Of a stretch of 64,000 nt of DNA, positions 14,680 to 23,888 are shown piece after piece. Within the stretch, counting starts at the first letter, position 1, and each line of letters opens with the position of its first letter. The position numbers and the translations under genes were made by a program. This DNA comes from Methyloversatilis discipulorum (GTDB lineage Bacteria; Pseudomonadota; Gammaproteobacteria; Burkholderiales; Rhodocyclaceae): positions 1-64,000 of the forward strand of contig NZ_JADMJL010000019.1 of the NCBI RefSeq assembly GCF_018780585.1, given 5' to 3'. The notes beneath the pieces were generated by a model that did not search any database, was not told the origin of the DNA, and was given only the letters and a program-made list of their open reading frames with translations.

Positions 14680-15648
14680 TTGATAACTGCGACGGTGCCC
14701 GAAGCCGCTCGAATGCAGCGGCGATGCGTCGATACGCTGCGCCGGGGCGTGCGCGCTGTACTGGGCGTGATGGCCGTCTCGCTGCTGTCCGGCTGTGCCG
14801 ACGACGCGCCGGTGGTGCAGCGGCCGGAGTATGCACGGGCCGATGCGGTGCCGCAGTTGCGCCGCCTCAGCTTCGGTGTGCACCCTCTGCACAACCCCGG
14901 GCGTCTGATGGCGCTTTACGGCCCTATCGTCGAAGCGCTCAACGAAGCGCTGCCCGATGTGGTGATCCGTCTGGAGGCCTCGCGTGACTACGCGGATTAC
15001 GAACGCAAGCTGCGCGAGCGGACGCTCGATCTGGCACTGCCCAATCCCTATCAGACGGTCTCGGTCGCGGCGCCTGCCTACCGCGTCTTCGGCAAGGTGT
15101 CTGGCGACGAGGACTTTCATGGTCTGATACTGCGGCGTCGCGACAGTCCGATCAGGCAGCCGCTCGACCTGCGCGGGGCGACTTTCAGCTGTCCGGCGCG
15201 CACCGCGGTGGCGGCCTGCATGCTGCCGCTGCTGCATCTGCGCGAGGCGGGTCTCGACGTCGCTCGCCAGCTCGACGTCAGGACAGTCGGCTCGCAGGAA
15301 TCCAGTATCCTGAATGTGGCGCGTGGCCTGGTTGACGCAGGCGCAACCTGGCCGCCGCCCTGGCGTGCGTTCCAGAAGGACTACCCGGGGCTCGCTGCCC
15401 AGCTCGAGGTCGCCTGGGTTACCGACAACCTTCCGAACAACAGCCTGATGGCACGGGCGGATCTGGAGCCCGAACTGGTCGAACGTGTCGCGCAGTTCCT
15501 GTTCGGTCTGGCGGCGACCGAAGAAGGGCGGCGACTGCTGGTCAATGCCGAGATTGCCGGCTTCGAACCGGCGACCGATGCCCGCTACGCGCCGGTGCAG
15601 GCGATGCTCGCCCGCTACGCCGAATTGATAGGCCCGATCGGACCATGA
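14680..15648 (+). CDS. PhnD-like periplasmic substrate-binding lipoprotein
   Basis: 322 residues with a lipoprotein signal ending in LLSGC (lipobox), so it should be anchored on the periplasmic side. The mature part follows the phosphate/phosphite/phosphonate-binding (PhnD) fold: RLSFGVHPLHNPGRLMALY at about 62-80 and the ALPNPYQTV segment near 121-129. The TTG start is preferred because ACAGGAG lies five bases upstream; the first in-frame ATG (14713) has no such site. No ABC permease or ATPase gene is nearby. Its stop overlaps the start of the PAS-GGDEF-EAL gene as ATGA, so it probably presents a ligand to that sensor rather than to a transporter. Confidence 0.8.
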   Translation: MITATVPEAARMQRRCVDTLRRGVRAVLGVMAVSLLSGCADDAPVVQRPEYARADAVPQLRRLSFGVHPLHNPGRLMALYGPIVEALNEALPDVVIRLEASRDYADYERKLRERTLDLALPNPYQTVSVAAPAYRVFGKVSGDEDFHGLILRRRDSPIRQPLDLRGATFSCPARTAVAACMLPLLHLREAGLDVARQLDVRTVGSQESSILNVARGLVDAGATWPPPWRAFQKDYPGLAAQLEVAWVTDNLPNNSLMARADLEPELVERVAQFLFGLAATEEGRRLLVNAEIAGFEPATDARYAPVQAMLARYAELIGPIGP

Positions 15649-18600
15649 CGCTCGCCGCTAACTTCGCTGCCAGACTGCGCACGCTGCTCACGGCGTCGCT
15701 GACGCGTCGGCTGGTGTTGTCTATCGTCGTGCTGCATGCGGTACTGATTTCGTTCTTCGTCAGTGATCTGGTTCGCCGGGAGCGCGAGGTGCTGCTGGCG
15801 CAGTCGCGTGCGGCGCTGCTGGCCGAGGTCGAACTGCTGTCGCGCAGCGGCAGGGAATGGGTGCTGGCGAACGATCTCGCCGGCCTCGACGAGTTGCTGC
15901 AGAGCGTGCGCAGTTCGCCCGGCATCGAATACGCGATGTATCTGGATTCCGACGGCCGGGTGCTGGTGCATACCGAGGCCGAGCGCAGCGGTACGGTGCT
16001 GTCGGACGCACTCAGCCTGTCCGCTCTGTCAGCGGGCGTCGGGCAAGGTGCGCGGCTGCTGCAGCAGACGGCGGAACTGAGCGATGCACTGGCGCCCGTG
16101 CATTACGGCGACCGGCTGGTCGGCTGGGTGCGCATCGCGCGCAACCACCAGAGCGAGGCGGCGGCGCTGCAGCGCGCGGTGTTCGATGGCGCGCTCTATG
16201 CGCTGACGGCCATCGTCATCGGCACCCTGCTGGCGATGCTGCTGGCGCGCGGTCTGACCGCGGACCTGCGCCGCGCACGCGGCCTGTTCGAGCGGGTACG
16301 CGAGGGCGATCTGTCGCAGCGTCTGTCGCATCGCCGCCAGGACGAACTTGGTCATCTGCTCGACGGCATCAACGACACGCTCGATACGCTGATGCGTAAC
16401 GACCGCGTGCTGCAGCAGACTCAGGAGCGGCTCGAGCTCGCCGTCAAGGGCTCGAACGACGGGGTGTGGGACTGGGACCTGGCGAGCAACGATGTCTATT
16501 ACTCGCCGCGCTGGAAGCAGATGCTCGGCTATTCCGACGACGAGCTGGGCAACCGGCCCGACGCCTTTCTCGATCGCGTTCATCCGGACGATCTGCCGCG
16601 CCTGCTCGACCGCATCAACGACTATCTCGAAGGGCGCATTCCGGTCTACGAAATCATCATTCGCGTACGACATCGCGACGGCGGCTGGCGCTGGATCATG
16701 TCGCGCGGATCGGCGGTGCGCGACCCCGGCGGACACGCCCGGCGGATGAGCGGCACCCATACCGACATCACGCCGCTGAAGAACGCCGAAGCGGGCCTCG
16801 CACTCGAGCGGTCGCGCCTCTACAGCCTGCTCGCGCAGATGTATATCGGCGTCGTGATGGAGGACGCCGACGGGCGGATCGCACTGTGCAACCACGCGTT
16901 CTGCGACCTGCTGTCGGTGTCGGGAGATCCGGCCGACTTCATCGGTCGGCGGCGTGAGGACCTGCTGATCGACGCGCAGGCGCTTTTCGCCGACGGTGCG
17001 GCCGCTGTGCAGCGCGCACTCGACATCGCGCAGCGCGGCGAGGCGGTGATCGGCGAGCGCGTGCACCTGAAGGACGGCCGCGTGATCGAGCGCGATTTCC
17101 TGCCCATCCGCGTCGGCGACGCGCAGCAGGGGGCACTGTGGACGTTGCGTGACATTTCGGCCCGCATTCGGCTGGAGCGGAATCTGTCGGCGGAGAAGGA
17201 GCGGCTGCGCGTCACCCTGCTGTCGATCGGCGATGCGGTGATCTCGACCGGCGAGGACGGCCGTATCGATTTTCTGAACCCGGTTGCCGAGCACCTGACC
17301 GGCTGGTCCAACGAAGAGGCGGCGGGCCGACCGCTGGCCGAGGTGCTGCGCCTGGTCGACGGCGTGACCCGCCAGCCCCGTCCCGATCCGGCGATCGAGG
17401 TGCTGCGCCAGCAGGTCGTGACGCCGCTGGAAGGCGAGACGCTGCTGGTGTCGCGCAGTGGCGAGGAGCGTGTGGTCGAGGACTCGGCCGCGCCGATACG
17501 CGATGCGCAGGGCGGCGTCTGTGGCGCGGTCGTCGTGTTCCGTGACGCCACCGACCGCCATCGCATGCAGGAGCGCCTGCGCTGGCAGGCGACGCACGAT
17601 CCGCTGACCGGTCTGGCCAACCGGCTGCTGCTGGAGGATCGCCTGACCCAGGCCATGGCGCGCGCTCGCCGCCAGGACAAGCTGCTCGCGGTTTGCGTGC
17701 TCGACCTCGACGAATTCAAGGCGGTCAATGACCGGCTCGGCCACGAAGCCGGCGACGAACTGCTGCAGGCCATCGCACACCGCCTCAGCGTGTCGGTGCG
17801 CATGGACGACACGGTGGCGCGGCTGGGCGGCGACGAATTCGTCGTGCTGCTCGGTTCGCTCGGCGATGTCGGCGAGATGGAAGCCTGTCTCGAACGCATG
17901 CTGGCCGCGCTGGCCGAGCCGCTGCATCTCGCCGGCGAGGAGGTGAGCACGCCGGCAAGCATCGGCGTCACGCTCTACCCGCTCAACGACAGCGAGGCCG
18001 ACGCGCTGCTGCGCCACGCGGACCAGGCCATGTACGCAGCCAAGCAGGCCGGCGGGCGCTGCTACCGGCTGTTCGATTTCGAGCACAGCCAGGAATCGGT
18101 CGAACGCCTGCGCCGCAAGGAGCGCATCGGCGAGGCGATCACGCATGGCGAAATGAGGCTGTACTTCCAGCCGCGCGTCGACATGCGCGAAGGGCGCATG
18201 GTCAGCGCCGAGGCTCTGGTGCGCTGGCAGCACCCGGAGGAAGGCCTGCTGCCGCCAGACAGCTTTCTGCCACTGATCGACAACGATCTGGAAATCCATC
18301 GCCTCGGCGAGTGGGTCATCCGCGATGCGCTGCGCCACCTCGCCACATGGTGGGCGGCCGGCGCGCATTTCAGTGTGTCGGTCAATATTTCAGCCCCGCA
18401 CCTGCTTGCACCGGGCTTCGTCATGCGGCTGGCCGAACTGCTGGCCGAGCAGCCGCAACTGCCGCGTCGCGTGCTCGAAATCGAGGTGGTCGAATCGGTG
18501 GCGCTGAACGACATCGAGCGCGCCGCCACGGTGGTCAGCGACATCCGCCGGCTGGGCGTGCGCGTGGCGATCGACGACTTCGGCGTCGGCTACGCCTCGC

Positions 18601-19283
18601 TTGGCTATCTGCGCCGGCTGCCGGTCGATGTCGTCAAGATCGACAAGTCCTTCGTGCTCGACATGCTGGACGACGAGGACGATTTCGAGGTCGTGCAGGC
18701 GGTCATCGCGCTGGCGCGCGCGCTGCGCCGGGAATCGGTAGCCGAAGGTGTCGAGACGGCCGAGCACGGGCTGCTGCTGATGCGTCTGGGCTGTCACCAG
18801 GTACAGGGCTACGGCATCGCGCGACCGATGCCGGCGGACGATCTGCTGCCCTGGCTGGCGAGCTGGGTGCCGGATCCACGGTGGACGGAGTGGCGGGATT
18901 TCAGCTGGGATATCGACGATCGCCCACTGTTTACCGCGATACGCGACTTCAACCGCTGGGCCGACGACGTACTGGCGATCGCCGCCGGCAACACGACGCG
19001 CCTGAGCGACGTCGAGGTGCGTGACCCGACGCAATGCCGCTTCGGTCTCTGGTTCCACGCCGAGGGCGAACAGCGCTACGGCAGCCTCGACGAATATCGG
19101 CGCCTCGATGTGGCGCACCGCGAGCTGCACGAACTGGGTGCCGACATCATCGATTGTCTGCGGCGCGGCGACGCGGCCGCGGCGCAGGCCGCTGCGCTCA
19201 GGCTGAGTGCAGCGCGCGAGCGCGTGACGGCCTGCATCGACGCGCTGCAGCGCGCTGCACGGCGCCGAGCGGTCACCGGCTGA
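15645..19283 (+). CDS. Membrane-bound PAS-GGDEF-EAL protein with C-terminal CZB-like domain
   Basis: 1212 residues predicted to make and/or break c-di-GMP. Order: TM1 (about 20-42), periplasmic sensor (43-180), TM2 (183-205), HAMP (206-258), three PAS domains (about 262-645), GGDEF with an intact motif at 728-732, EAL with an intact motif at 856-858 and DDFGVGYASLGYL later, and a C-terminal chemoreceptor zinc-binding-like region (1095-1205). In the last, C1131, H1158 and H1162 have the exact spacing of CZB ligands but the first histidine position is F1101. Both catalytic domains look active. Coupled by ATGA to the PhnD-like gene upstream. Confidence 0.92.
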   Translation: MTLAANFAARLRTLLTASLTRRLVLSIVVLHAVLISFFVSDLVRREREVLLAQSRAALLAEVELLSRSGREWVLANDLAGLDELLQSVRSSPGIEYAMYLDSDGRVLVHTEAERSGTVLSDALSLSALSAGVGQGARLLQQTAELSDALAPVHYGDRLVGWVRIARNHQSEAAALQRAVFDGALYALTAIVIGTLLAMLLARGLTADLRRARGLFERVREGDLSQRLSHRRQDELGHLLDGINDTLDTLMRNDRVLQQTQERLELAVKGSNDGVWDWDLASNDVYYSPRWKQMLGYSDDELGNRPDAFLDRVHPDDLPRLLDRINDYLEGRIPVYEIIIRVRHRDGGWRWIMSRGSAVRDPGGHARRMSGTHTDITPLKNAEAGLALERSRLYSLLAQMYIGVVMEDADGRIALCNHAFCDLLSVSGDPADFIGRRREDLLIDAQALFADGAAAVQRALDIAQRGEAVIGERVHLKDGRVIERDFLPIRVGDAQQGALWTLRDISARIRLERNLSAEKERLRVTLLSIGDAVISTGEDGRIDFLNPVAEHLTGWSNEEAAGRPLAEVLRLVDGVTRQPRPDPAIEVLRQQVVTPLEGETLLVSRSGEERVVEDSAAPIRDAQGGVCGAVVVFRDATDRHRMQERLRWQATHDPLTGLANRLLLEDRLTQAMARARRQDKLLAVCVLDLDEFKAVNDRLGHEAGDELLQAIAHRLSVSVRMDDTVARLGGDEFVVLLGSLGDVGEMEACLERMLAALAEPLHLAGEEVSTPASIGVTLYPLNDSEADALLRHADQAMYAAKQAGGRCYRLFDFEHSQESVERLRRKERIGEAITHGEMRLYFQPRVDMREGRMVSAEALVRWQHPEEGLLPPDSFLPLIDNDLEIHRLGEWVIRDALRHLATWWAAGAHFSVSVNISAPHLLAPGFVMRLAELLAEQPQLPRRVLEIEVVESVALNDIERAATVVSDIRRLGVRVAIDDFGVGYASLGYLRRLPVDVVKIDKSFVLDMLDDEDDFEVVQAVIALARALRRESVAEGVETAEHGLLLMRLGCHQVQGYGIARPMPADDLLPWLASWVPDPRWTEWRDFSWDIDDRPLFTAIRDFNRWADDVLAIAAGNTTRLSDVEVRDPTQCRFGLWFHAEGEQRYGSLDEYRRLDVAHRELHELGADIIDCLRRGDAAAAQAAALRLSAARERVTACIDALQRAARRRAVTG

Positions 19284-19301: not shown

Positions 19302-21212
19302 TCACGCGTCGATCAGGATGCCCAGATCGCGCAGGCGCTGCATCATTTCATCGACCGTCTGTTCGATGTCGCGGCCGCTGGTGTCGATGCGGATCTCCGC
19401 GTTCTCCGGTGCTTCGTAGGGCGAGTCGATACCGGTGAAGTTCTTGATCTCGCCGCGTCGCGCCTTCTTGTACAGCCCCTTCGGGTCGCGCTCCTCGGCC
19501 ACCGCGATCGGCGTGTCGACAAAGATTTCGATGAATTCGCCGTCCTCCAGCAGACCGCGCGCCATGCGGCGTTCGGAGCGGAAGGGCGAGATGAAGGCGG
19601 TAAGCACGATGAGACCGGCGTCCACCATCAGCTTGGCCACTTCGGCGACGCGACGGATGTTCTCGACGCGGTCCGCTTCGGTGAAGCCCAGATCCTTGTT
19701 CAGGCCGTGCCGCACGTTGTCGCCGTCGAGCAGATAAGTGTGACGGCCGAGCGCGTTCAATCGCTTTTCGAGCTGGTTGGCGAGCGTCGATTTGCCCGCG
19801 CCGGACAGGCCGGTGAACCACAGCACGCAGGGTTTCTGGCCCTTCATCGCGCCGCGGGTTGCCTTGTCCACATCGACGTGCTGCATGTGGATGTTGTGCG
19901 AGCGGCGCAGCGCGAAGCGCAGCATGCCGGCGCCTATGGTGGCGTTGCTGATGCGGTCGATCAGGATGAAGCCACCGGTTTCGCGTACCGATTCGTAGGG
20001 GTCGAAGGCGATCGGCCGGTCGATGCTGAGCTTCACCTGCGCGATCTCGTTCAGCGCGAGCTGTTTGGCCGCCAGATGCTCCAGCGTGTTCACGTTCACC
20101 TTGTGCTTGATGTCGGTGACCGTGGCAGTGACCGTGCGCGTACCGATCTTCATCAGGTAGGCGCGGCCGGGCATCATCGGCTCGTCCTGCATCCACACCA
20201 GCGTGGCTTCGAACTGGTCGGCCACTTCTGCTGGCGTGTCCTTGTGCGAAATCACGTCGCCGCGGGAAATGTCGACCTCGTCCTCCAGCACCAGCGTGAC
20301 CGACTGACCGGCGATGGCACGGGGCAGGTCGCCGTCGGCGGTGACGATGCGCTTGATCGTGCTGGTGCGGCCCGACGGCTGCACGCGGATGGCTGCGCCC
20401 GGTTCGATCACGCCGCTGGCGATGGTGCCGGCGAAGCCGCGGAAATCGAGATTGGGGCGGTTCACCCACTGCACCGGCAGGCGGAAGGGACCCTTCAGCC
20501 GGCGCTTCTGGTCGACCTCGACGGTTTCCAGATAGCCCATCAACGTCGGGCCGTGGTACCAGCCCATCTGTTCGCTCTGTGACGTGATGTTGTCGCCCTT
20601 CAGCGCGGACATCGGTATCGCGACGATGTCCTCCAGGCCCAGCTGGGCGGCGAAGGCGCGGTAGTCGTCGAGGATGCGGCGGAAGGTGGCCTCGGAATAG
20701 CCGACCAGGTCCATCTTGTTGATGGCGACGACGACGCGCTTGATGCCGATCAGCGACACCAGGAAGCTGTGGCGGCGGGTCTGCGTCTGCACGCCGTGAC
20801 GGGCGTCGACCAGGATGATGGCCAGATCGGCGGTCGAGGCGCCGGTGACCATGTTACGCGTGTACTGCTCGTGGCCCGGCGTGTCGGCGACGATGAACTT
20901 GCGCCGGTCGGTCGAGAAGAAGCGGTAGGCGACGTCGATCGTGATGCCCTGTTCGCGCTCCGCGGCCAGGCCGTCGACCAGCAGCGCGAAGTCGAGGTCG
21001 CCGCCCTGTGTGCCCACCTTCTTCGAGTCGGCTTCGAGCGCGGCCAGCTGGTCCTCGAACAGCATTTTCGATTCGTACAGCAGGCGGCCGATCAGCGTGC
21101 TCTTGCCGTCATCGACGCTGCCGCAGGTGATGAAGCGCAGCAGGCTCTTGTGCTCGTGCTGCTTCAGGTAGGCGCCGATGTCCTGCGCGATGAGGTCGGA
21201 TACGTGTGCCAT
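19302..21212 (-). CDS. cysNC: Bifunctional sulfate adenylyltransferase subunit 1 / APS kinase (CysN-CysC fusion)
   Basis: Large GTPase subunit of ATP sulfurylase fused to adenylylsulfate kinase, so it makes APS with CysD and then PAPS. The N-terminal elongation-factor-like GTPase has the P-loop GSVDDGKST (31-39); the C-terminal APS kinase has GLSGAGKST (about 468-476) and the [11 protein letters not shown] segment. Length 636 aa matches NodQ/CysNC fusions. Its ATG abuts the cysD stop with no gap, marking a cysD-cysNC operon. The product PAPS fits the adjacent cysQ gene, whose enzyme removes PAP. Confidence 0.95.
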
Positions 21213-22991
21213 TTAGAAATAACCCTCTTGCTTCTTCTTTTCCATCGAACCGGCCGAATCGTGGTCGATCACGCGGCCCTGGCGCTCCGAAGTCTTCGTG
21301 AGCAGCATTTCCTGGATGATTTCGGTCAGCGACGATGCATTCGACTCGACCGCGCCGGTCAGCGGATAGCAGCCCAGGGTGCGGAAACGCACGCTCTTCA
21401 TCTGCGGCACTTCGCCAGCGCGCAGCGGCATGCGCTCGTCGTCCACCATGATCAGCGTGCCGTCGCGCTCGACGACCGGGCGCGGCGCCGAGAAGTAGAG
21501 CGGCACGATGGGAATGTTCTGCAGATAGATGTACTGCCAGATGTCGAGCTCGGTCCAGTTCGAGATCGGGAAGGCGCGGATCGATTCGCCCTTGTGCTTG
21601 CGCGCGTTATAGAGGTTCCACAGTTCTGGCCGCTGGTTCTTCGGGTCCCAGCGGTGCTGCGCTGTGCGGAAGGAGAACACGCGTTCCTTGGCGCGCGATT
21701 TTTCCTCGTCGCGGCGGGCGCCGCCGAAAGCGACGTCGAAACCGTACTTGTCCAGCGCCTGTTTCAGCGCCTCGGTCTTCATGATGTCGGTGTGGATGGC
21801 GGAGCCGTGCGTGAACGGGTTGATGCCCTTGGCGACGCCTTCCTGGTTGATGTGCACGATGAGGTCCATGCCCAGCTTCTTCGCCATCTCGTCGCGGAAC
21901 TGGTACATCGCCTTGAACTTCCAGGTGGTGTCCACGTGCAGCAGCGGAAAGGGCGGCACGGCCGGGTAGAAGGCCTTCATCGCAAGGTGCAGCATGACCG
22001 CGCTGTCCTTGCCGATCGAGTAGAGCATGACCGGGTTTTCGGCTTCGGCCACCACCTCGCGCATGATGTGGATGCTCTCGGCTTCCAGCCGCTGCAGGTG
22101 GGTCAGGGTGTCGGGATCGATCGCTTCGGGTGTGGTCTGCATGGGCGCTCTCGGTTTGATCGCGGAATGATGGGGTGCCGCCGCGACGTGCGCGTTCGAG
22201 CGCGTCACGGCGGGCGGCGGATTCGAGGACTGGGCTGCGGCGGGCGTCACGGTCGGCGACATCGGCAGCGCGGTCCAGCTTAACGGCGGCGTCTGCGCCG
22301 ACATCCAGCGATCCAGTTCACCGCCCGGCGTCAGCGTCAGGCCGCTCAGCAACAGATGCACCGGCCGCTTCCGTTCGGCGGCGAGACGCTGCCAGAAGCG
22401 CGTCCAGTCGTCGGTATCCGGTGGGTTCTGGCATGCCGACCAGTGCAACTGGCCGCGGCTGCCACGTGCGAACAGGAGCCAGTGACGGTGCTCGGCGGCG
22501 GTACCGGGCAGGGAGCCGCACCAGAAGGGGTCGTGGTCGTGCGCGACCGATTTCATCAGCGCGTGCAGCTGCCGGTCGTCGTCGTCGGACAACGCGGGCT
22601 GCAGGCCCCAGCCGGCGCGGTAGCGACCCAGGCTGCGCCGCGGCGGCACCGGCAGACCTTGCTGCACGAACCACGCCGCAATCGCCTCGTCGCTCCACAG
22701 ACGCTGCGGCAGGCCGAGCGCATCCGGGGTGTGTCCGACCATGGCGGTCAGCAGTCTGCGCTCGACCGAGGCGTCGAGCTTGCGGCCGCTGCCGGCACTG
22801 CGGCCGCGACGGCGCAGCAGCACCGCATCCCATCCGCCAGCCAGATAGGCCTTGTGGGCAGCGATGACCGTTGGCGCGCTCAGGCGCACCGCGGCCGATA
22901 CCGCGGCCACGGTCATGCCGGCCAGGCGCAGCCTGACGGCTTCGCGGCGGCGTTCGTTCAACTCTTCGGCAGGCAGGTTTCTAGCGTCCAT
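21213..22991 (-). CDS. cysD: CysD (sulfate adenylyltransferase subunit 2) with in-frame IS630-transposase-like N-terminal module
   Basis: The C-terminal 309 residues, from M284 (ATG at 22140-22142), are a complete CysD that forms APS from sulfate and ATP: PP-loop YSIGKDSAV and the CysD landmarks [15 protein letters not shown] and [15 protein letters not shown]. Upstream the same frame is open for another 283 residues with a helix-turn-helix (about 26-56), a region laid out like an IS630 DDE transposase but without its acidic residues, and a Pro/Ala-rich linker (about 245-283). Either a fusion is made or CysD starts internally at 22142, where GAGAG lies five bases upstream next to a rare AGA codon. 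CysD itself is certain; the extension's translation is likely but unproven. Confidence 0.85.
22143..22991 (-). other. Degenerate IS630-like transposase module preceding CysD
   Basis: Residues 1-283 of the cysD frame. The start [20 protein letters not shown] and the helix-turn-helix [24 protein letters not shown]-like region resemble IS630-family N-termini. Further on, [22 protein letters not shown] occupies the place where IS630 enzymes have the strand ending in a catalytic aspartate (LVLDN) and a following histidine; here both are lost. No terminal inverted repeats or TA duplications were noticed. It looks like a domesticated DNA-binding module rather than a live element. Confidence 0.6.
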
Positions 22992-23111
22992 TCTTCACGG
23001 ACAGGGTTGTCATCCGTCATGTAGAGTACAAGCATTCAGTGCGCAGATAATGTGCATTAATTATTTAGTGGCCGTTAAACCGACGGACACCGTGGCTTGT
23101 CAGGAGAAAAC

Positions 23112-23888
23112 ATGAAGGACGTCGCCGAACTGAAGACCTTGCACGCGGCGCTGCTGGACATCGTCCGGGATGCGGGCAAGTGCGTGATGGATGTCTATGC
23201 GACGGATTTCGAAGTGACTGATAAGTCGGACAATTCGCCCGTGACGCAAGCCGACAAGAAGGCTGACGAGGTCATCGTTGCGCGCTTGAAGGCGCTGACG
23301 CCGGACATTTTCATCGTGTCCGAAGAGTCCACCGAAGCCGGTCAGCGGCCGGCGGACGGCGCACCGTTCTGGCTGGTCGATCCACTGGATGGCACGAAAG
23401 AGTTTATCAACCGCAACGGCGAGTTCACAGTCAACGTCGCCCTGATCGAGAACGGCCAGCCGGTGCTGGGCGTCGTGCTGGCGCCGGCGCTGGGCCGCCT
23501 GTTCTCTGGCATCGCCGGTGTCGGCGCCTGGCTGGAGGACGCCGACGGCGCGCGCGAAATCCGCTGCCGCGTGCCGCCAGGCGAAGGGCTCACGGTGGTG
23601 GCCAGCCGTTCGCACGGCGACGCGGCCGCGCTCGAGGCCTACCTCGCAGGGCGCACGGTGGCAGACCTGCGCAACGCCGGCTCATCGCTGAAGATCTGTC
23701 TGGTCGCGGCCGGCGAAGCCGACGTCTATCCGCGCCTCGGTCGCACGATGGAATGGGACATTGCCGCCGGTCACGCGGTGCTGGTGGCCGCGGGTGGCCG
23801 CATCGAGCAGGTCGACGGTTCGCCGTTCAGCTACGGCAAACCGGATTTCGCCAACCCGCACTTCGCCGCCTGGGGGCTGGGCGCCTGA
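23112..23888 (+). CDS. cysQ: 3'(2'),5'-bisphosphate nucleotidase
   Basis: Hydrolyses PAP, the by-product of PAPS reduction, to AMP. The inositol-monophosphatase-fold metal site is visible: DPLDGTKEF at 90-98 with metal ligands D90 and D93, an upstream EE pair (71-72), and WDIAAGHAVL near the C-terminus. 258 aa is normal. The ATG at 23112 has CAGGAG eight bases upstream. It is divergent from the cysD-cysNC operon and 10 bases upstream of an SLC13-type permease gene, completing a sulfate-assimilation cluster. Confidence 0.94.
   Translation: MKDVAELKTLHAALLDIVRDAGKCVMDVYATDFEVTDKSDNSPVTQADKKADEVIVARLKALTPDIFIVSEESTEAGQRPADGAPFWLVDPLDGTKEFINRNGEFTVNVALIENGQPVLGVVLAPALGRLFSGIAGVGAWLEDADGAREIRCRVPPGEGLTVVASRSHGDAAALEAYLAGRTVADLRNAGSSLKICLVAAGEADVYPRLGRTMEWDIAAGHAVLVAAGGRIEQVDGSPFSYGKPDFANPHFAAWGLGA

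Follow-up and report, generated by a model that had tools for sequence, protein, structure and literature searches.

The stretch of DNA analyzed here, hereafter the window, is 64,000 nucleotides long and comes from Methyloversatilis discipulorum. It contains an E. coli-type cysD gene, followed by cysNC, that is separated from a cysQ-like gene by a divergent intergenic region (Table 1). Since cysNC includes an APS kinase domain, the cysD-cysNC operon should make PAPS. Divergently upstream of cysD, beside the cysQ-like gene, Pfam also places a CitMHS/TrkA_C transporter, and in most of the related loci whose cysD is fused as described below the divergent cysQ is again the neighbor. A gene for a PAS-GGDEF-EAL protein with a CZB zinc-binding domain (window positions 15645-19283) lies tail to tail with cysNC and is retained in some genomes of the same genus. 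A sigma-70 promoter scan over positions 22100-23150 found nothing. The same genome holds a second E. coli-type CysD with cysNC, which has no extension (L099, contig C75, 42000-55000), and several genomes of the genus likewise hold both a fused and an extension-free CysD.

Table 1. Features of the fused cysD locus, in window positions.
Feature	Position	Strand	Evidence
cysNC (CysN GTPase and APS kinase), downstream of cysD	19302..21212	-	Pfam
Fused gene: IS630-derived extension, linker and CysD	21213..22991	-	592 codons; profile matches; layout conserved in relatives
CysD core (sulfate adenylyltransferase small subunit)	21213..22142	-	TIGR02039 and 1zun_A matches
Internal ATG, conventional CysD start (309 aa)	22140..22142	-	In-frame ATG near the core in relatives
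Weak Shine-Dalgarno-like GAGAG ahead of the internal start	22148..22152	-	42% of sequence windows in the gene pair as well
Pro/Ala-rich linker	22143..22256	-	Sequence and alignment
Degenerate RNase H-like domain, DDE acids lost (residues about 136-245)	22257..22586	-	IS630 alignment; AlphaFold2; weak Foldseek
Second helical, HTH-like stretch (residues about 74-126)	22614..22772	-	IS630 profile to residue 133; AlphaFold2
N-terminal winged HTH (residues about 8-70)	22782..22970	-	HTH_29/HTH_23 and IS630 profile; AlphaFold2; w 0.03-0.24
cysQ/fused-cysD divergent intergenic region	22992..23111	.	Contains a block conserved in ten same-group sequences
AT-rich, palindrome-like site TAAATAATTAATGCACA, candidate operator	23051..23067	-	Motif search; lies in the conserved block of the intergenic region
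cysQ-like inositol-phosphatase family gene, divergent	23112..23888	+	Pfam PF00459

The cysD frame is open for 592 codons and the methionine at which CysD conventionally begins is residue 284, so that 283 codons precede it, as the initial annotation had stated. The enzyme that occupies the end of the frame appears to be complete: the CysD model TIGR02039 covers residues 299-592 with 515.5 bits against a curated cut-off of 396.6 (E 4.8e-155), and the solved CysD 1zun_A matches the CysD part of the fusion at an E value of 4.5e-157.

The residues ahead of the enzyme match IS630 transposases. NCBIfam's IS630 transposase model, NF033545, aligns to residues 14-133 at E 1.1e-9, its 38 bits falling short of the curated cut-off of 100, and Pfam's HTH_29 and HTH_23 align to residues 15-77 (E ~7e-6) and 13-53 (E ~8e-6), respectively, of which only HTH_23 clears its cut-off, and only with the extension scanned alone. 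When a profile was built from the extensions themselves it retrieved IS630 proteins at E values down to 4e-68. We aligned 37 extensions (33 with the N-terminal winged helix-turn-helix, or wHTH, of the IS630 family and 4 without it) with 5 IS630 proteins; the IS630-like recognition stretch is kept wherever that part of the extension is present, and 15 columns are invariant in 28 sequences. The helix-turn-helix, the overall IS630 layout and the Pro/Ala linker before CysD that had been read from the letters at the outset are borne out by these comparisons. It had also been claimed that the catalytic positions were replaced, which the alignment upholds, but the positions, given then as aspartate and histidine, should read as the DDE acids. 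In the window the 'WGDE' of IS630 has become 'WCGS' and 'LDN' has become 'LSG', and the third-acid segment is absent, with the linker standing in its place. Across the extensions the first acid motif is graded from 'WVDE', near that of IS630 (L066, L073, L094), to the lost 'WCGS' of the window. The group of extensions that lack the wHTH aligns to positions 89-232 of the extension profile with an hhalign probability of 94.9 (E 4e-8), five column-shuffled control profiles all giving 0.3 or less.

AlphaFold2, run with four sequences, predicts the wHTH with confidence (residues 11-50, pLDDT 85-93) within a model that is weak overall (59.7), in which helices at 74-86, 101-110 and 118-126 have low confidence and a beta-beta-beta-alpha-beta-alpha-beta order follows past residue 150. 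The best eight Foldseek matches were chains of IstA, TnsB/CAST and Mos1 entries, all with E values above 1e-3, and a sequence search of the PDB with the extension profile gave one match, at E 0.67.

A live insertion sequence was considered and rejected, in keeping with the original reading, on the grounds that the DDE acids are gone and that the extension is single-copy in the window's own genome. A tblastn search of 72,556 plasmid records gave no match to the extension, and a pattern scan of viral contigs returned 17 stretches with no relative among them. In another genome of the same family (G336) there is a stand-alone IS630-like frame of 290 aa without recognizable DDE acids (L024, 1444-2313); it reads 'FFAGEMTPP' at the place of the first acid, has no CysD frame near it within the 3.7 kb examined, and is possibly another domesticated copy.

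The openness of a frame is by itself weak proof of a fusion, since an unfused locus (L080, 4297-6360, in G428) has 394 open codons before its CysD core that resemble the antisense of cysQ, so that the locus only mimics the arrangement described here. We take the fusion to be real on account of the homology and of the fused layout conserved in other genomes, the same observations that sustain the earlier view of the extension as something other than random shadow sequence. A chance open frame was likewise rejected, because the frame encodes a conserved protein.

We searched 395 genomes of the family with a CysD profile and obtained 105 E. coli-type CysD rows (at least about 466 bits) in 87 genomes, of which 41 rows are fused, as judged from the DNA of the rows with frames of at least 385 codons (except one CysD each of G730 and G461), the shorter-frame rows being classed as unfused by frame length, with no extension in the flanks of 19 of them (among L034-L062). 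The fused rows comprise 32 with the full extension, 1 with the wHTH and linker only (G400, L114) and 8 that have no wHTH and keep the rest of the extension (L095, L096, L097, L102, L109, L110, L111, L112). Many relatives have no extension. Three loci found in a scan of named genomes (L031, L032 and L033, the last from M. thermotolerans 3t) are all fused in frame. Among 399 genomes drawn evenly from the order, fusions (frames of ~600 codons, E <1e-80) occurred in the window's genome and in two genomes of family f4, the other strong matches among those listed having IS630-like lengths or being fragments, and a draw of 360 genomes of the class added one further fusion, in family f195. It seems that in a group of environmental bacteria a sulfate-activating enzyme has retained a dead transposase as its N-terminal half.

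We compared the parts of the fusion by pairwise Nei-Gojobori estimates of dN/dS (w) in 16 chosen pairs, obtaining 0.03-0.24 for the wHTH, 0.04-0.51 for the middle part, 0.13-0.79 for the RNase H-like part and 0-0.13 for CysD. The wHTH is under strong purifying selection and is the best-conserved part of the extension; the RNase H-like part and the linker evolve fast.

Upstream of the extension, a Gibbs search of 26 such regions yielded the motif TTAAACATTTAATT with a total of 282.9, four shuffles run with fewer restarts giving totals of 189.3-195.2. Scored with a matrix that omits the locus's own group, 25 of the 26 wHTH fusions reach at least 10.9, and 24 outscore every background window of their own locus (L082 is equalled by 1 of 56 and L094 is siteless), although high scores are favored here, the regions scored being those in which the sites had been chosen. 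Another eight near-identical fusions have scores of 21-27 under the full matrix. Against dinucleotide shuffles p was <0.05 in 21 of the 26, the exceptions being L070, L089, L094, L101 and L114. Among unfused cysD loci (35 of 36, L113 left out) a single one reaches 10.9 (L115, 12.5) and the others score 7.0 or less, in upstream regions that are mostly higher in G+C than the fused ones. The eight wHTH-less fusions score 2.8-15.9, half of them at 11.1 or more. At the f195 locus, which was never in the matrix, the best site of 9 kb (score 17.0) lies directly upstream of the extension.

At genome scale, TAAATAATTAATGCACA is unique in the window's genome at up to 3 mismatches. For the general motif at one mismatch or fewer, the 3.1 Mb genome of G422 has only two matches, the site upstream and an inverted one in the linker, and the sole match in G534 and in G624 is the upstream site; G505 has the exact motif in the linker and a one-mismatch match elsewhere, while genome G000 has no match and G540, of the same genus, none at the locus. 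At two mismatches the genome matches are about as many as for the reversed pattern. The AT-rich motif could be a promoter element. It was also considered as the ends of present-day IS630 elements and rejected: in 12 nearby IS630 loci the ends are clear in about four (L005, L012, L013, L019), where they are CTATTGATCCGGCA- or TATTAACCCGGCA-like and differ from the conserved motif.

Given these observations, we incline modestly to the reading that a domesticated IS630 transposase now serves as an autoregulatory DNA-binding domain of CysD and that plain CysD is probably made as well. An IS630-type transposase lying beside an E. coli-type cysD, with its cysD-cysNC operon and divergent cysQ, would have been domesticated and fused in frame; its wHTH would bind the AT-rich motif, and the long wHTH-RNase H-like-CysD protein would regulate its own operon and perhaps cysQ, while an internal start on the same mRNA would supply the plain enzyme. 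Because the long protein carries the enzyme, it could sense a ligand of CysD (ATP, sulfate or APS) or its pairing with CysN. Of the functions open to the extension this one appears the likeliest, since the wHTH is the part kept best, one genome keeps only the wHTH, and the motif accompanies the wHTH. The initial annotation, which had supposed a domesticated transposase acting as a local regulator fused to, or nested before, a sulfate-activation enzyme, is in part supported, by the IS630 origin, the catalytic loss, the in-frame fusion, its occurrence in relatives, the purifying selection and the candidate operator; of the outcomes that it had held to be fatal, absence of the extension from relatives and a dN/dS near 1 (in the wHTH) were looked for and not found.

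In seven of the 26 wHTH fusions (L066, L070, L072, L073, L075, L078, L082; not in the window) an inverted copy of the motif also lies in the linker, 86-98 bases before the CysD core, and all seven copies exceed every background window of their own locus. The pairing may recall terminal inverted repeats around an IS630 gene; the copies are unlike the few clear IS630 ends. A more ambitious reading, which we hold tentatively and think rather unlikely, is that the whole transposon was domesticated, the transposase becoming the DNA-binding half and the ends becoming the operators (the upstream site and the inverted linker copy); by binding both, the fusion would sense sulfate activation and loop or occlude its own promoter.

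The extension might instead be a nested gene, a regulator made from its own weak initiation, with the activity residing almost wholly in the 309-aa CysD and the fused state incidental. We regard this as doubtful, but several properties of the translation starts are consistent with it. In 25 of the 26 wHTH fusions there is an in-frame ATG at most 30 codons ahead of the CysD core (L094 has TTG only), often preceded by GA-rich sequence. Pairing with the anti-Shine-Dalgarno sequence at this internal start is moderate: its median percentile among windows of the gene in question is 0.19, two of 26 fall in the best 5%, and the value for the window analyzed here is 0.42. At the long start such pairing is absent (median percentile 0.85; none of 23 in the best 5%), so that the long form may be rare or leaderless. 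Synonymous divergence in the linker is depressed in several pairs, with a dS of 0.09 between the window and L090 against 0.15-0.39 elsewhere and of 0.02 between L071 and L077; it is high (1.28) between L074 and L088. Among the eight wHTH-less fusions, six have a GTG or TTG within 20 codons of the core, but the nearest ATG is 34-158 codons before it, and L102 and L109 lack all three of these codons over the 34 codons ahead of the core.

A natural deletion bears on the same question. G507 (L105) is nested among the nearest fused relatives of the window and has the same neighbor genes; between cysQ and its CysD core the slice measures 281 bases, as against 1023 in the window (slice ends of our choosing). 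The extension is gone, and what remains is the last part of the linker with the internal ATG. In this one case no motif site was found.

Against an incidental fusion stands the linker itself. Among 34 wHTH fusions it has 24 different lengths, between 29 and 94 codons, yet none of the 34 has a stop in the cysD frame, whereas 29 and 22 of them have stops in the other two frames, an absence that is partly by construction since the fusions were found by their long frame. As a control for this bias we searched the 46 genomes that have E. coli-type CysD rows but no fusion for a separated extension beside cysD. Twenty of them have a match to the extension profile at an E value of 1e-5 or less, and by coordinates no separate extension adjoins a listed CysD in any but G459. 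There an excellent extension match and a CysD lie at the ends of different contigs (C73, 138-896, and C23, 68-949), and this is probably a fusion split by the assembly. Stop-free linkers together with the lack of separated extensions beside cysD are hard to explain unless the joined protein matters. At the same time, the moderate Shine-Dalgarno-like sequence at the internal start and its absence at the long start make it a serious possibility that the gene is both fused and nested. We infer that two proteins are made, of which the longer has a poor or leaderless initiation, and plain CysD is probably translated from the internal start on the same mRNA.

In a tree of 77 CysD cores the wHTH-less fusions form one clade (100/96), which retains only the RNase H-like half of the extension joined to CysD. 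This clade would suit a module for protein-protein contact or assembly, acting on CysN/CysNC or on oligomerization and not on DNA. We think such a role improbable given that no part of the extension is better conserved than the wHTH, that the motif goes with it, and that G400 has kept the wHTH without the remainder. Explaining the full fusions on the same tree takes 10 changes, and the backbone has little resolution, so that one gain with many losses is a reading and not a result; transfer may also have occurred. A test on independent pairs came out as expected in about four of four at a score threshold of 10 (p 0.125) and in about three of four at 16 (p 0.25), the test being too small to reach significance. 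That the extension is a chance-fused IS630 copy in decay, with the paired inverted motif as its old ends, is very improbable: the w values of up to 0.79 in the RNase H-like part, the fast linker, the tree labels that fit repeated loss and the inverted copies flanking the domain in seven of 26 fusions are compatible with it, but the purifying selection on the wHTH already strains it, the frame is open in three families, and the upstream site is kept where the linker copy is gone.

If CysD does carry an autoregulatory domain of transposase origin, bacteria would have their own parallel to transcription factors that derive from transposases, here joined directly to an enzyme of core metabolism, and ATP sulfurylase would report its own state to transcription in these bacteria. 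As the gene occurs naturally with the full extension, with the wHTH alone, without the wHTH and with the extension deleted, and has a predicted operator, the family would offer a clean test bed.

In a literature search there was no CysD-transposase or CysD-HTH fusion among the matches listed. The extension shares with IS630 and Tc1-mariner transposases the order of an N-terminal wHTH, a second helical region and an RNase H-like core; unlike them it has neither the DDE acids nor the third-acid segment, exists in a single copy and is joined to CysD. With the CysD of CysD-CysNC type (TIGR02039, 1zun) the fusion shares the full catalytic subunit, but the 283-residue N-terminal extension is absent there. 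In animals, host-transposase fusion transcription factors join the DNA-binding domain of a transposase to a host domain; the protein described here differs in being bacterial, in having a metabolic enzyme as partner and in forming one continuous frame without splicing.

Enzymes that carry a DNA-binding domain in the same chain offer another comparison, PutA and BirA being examples. The proline dehydrogenase/repressor PutA and the biotin ligase/repressor BirA are described as metabolic enzymes that act on their own operon (PMC6978683). Like these trigger enzymes, the fusion combines an enzyme with what is predicted to be a DNA-binding domain, the wHTH in frame with CysD. Unlike them, its predicted DNA-binding part is transposase-derived, its enzyme is ATP sulfurylase, and a short enzyme-only product seems possible. 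PutA and BirA are the nearest working models for the CysD fusion, which would itself be a trigger enzyme.
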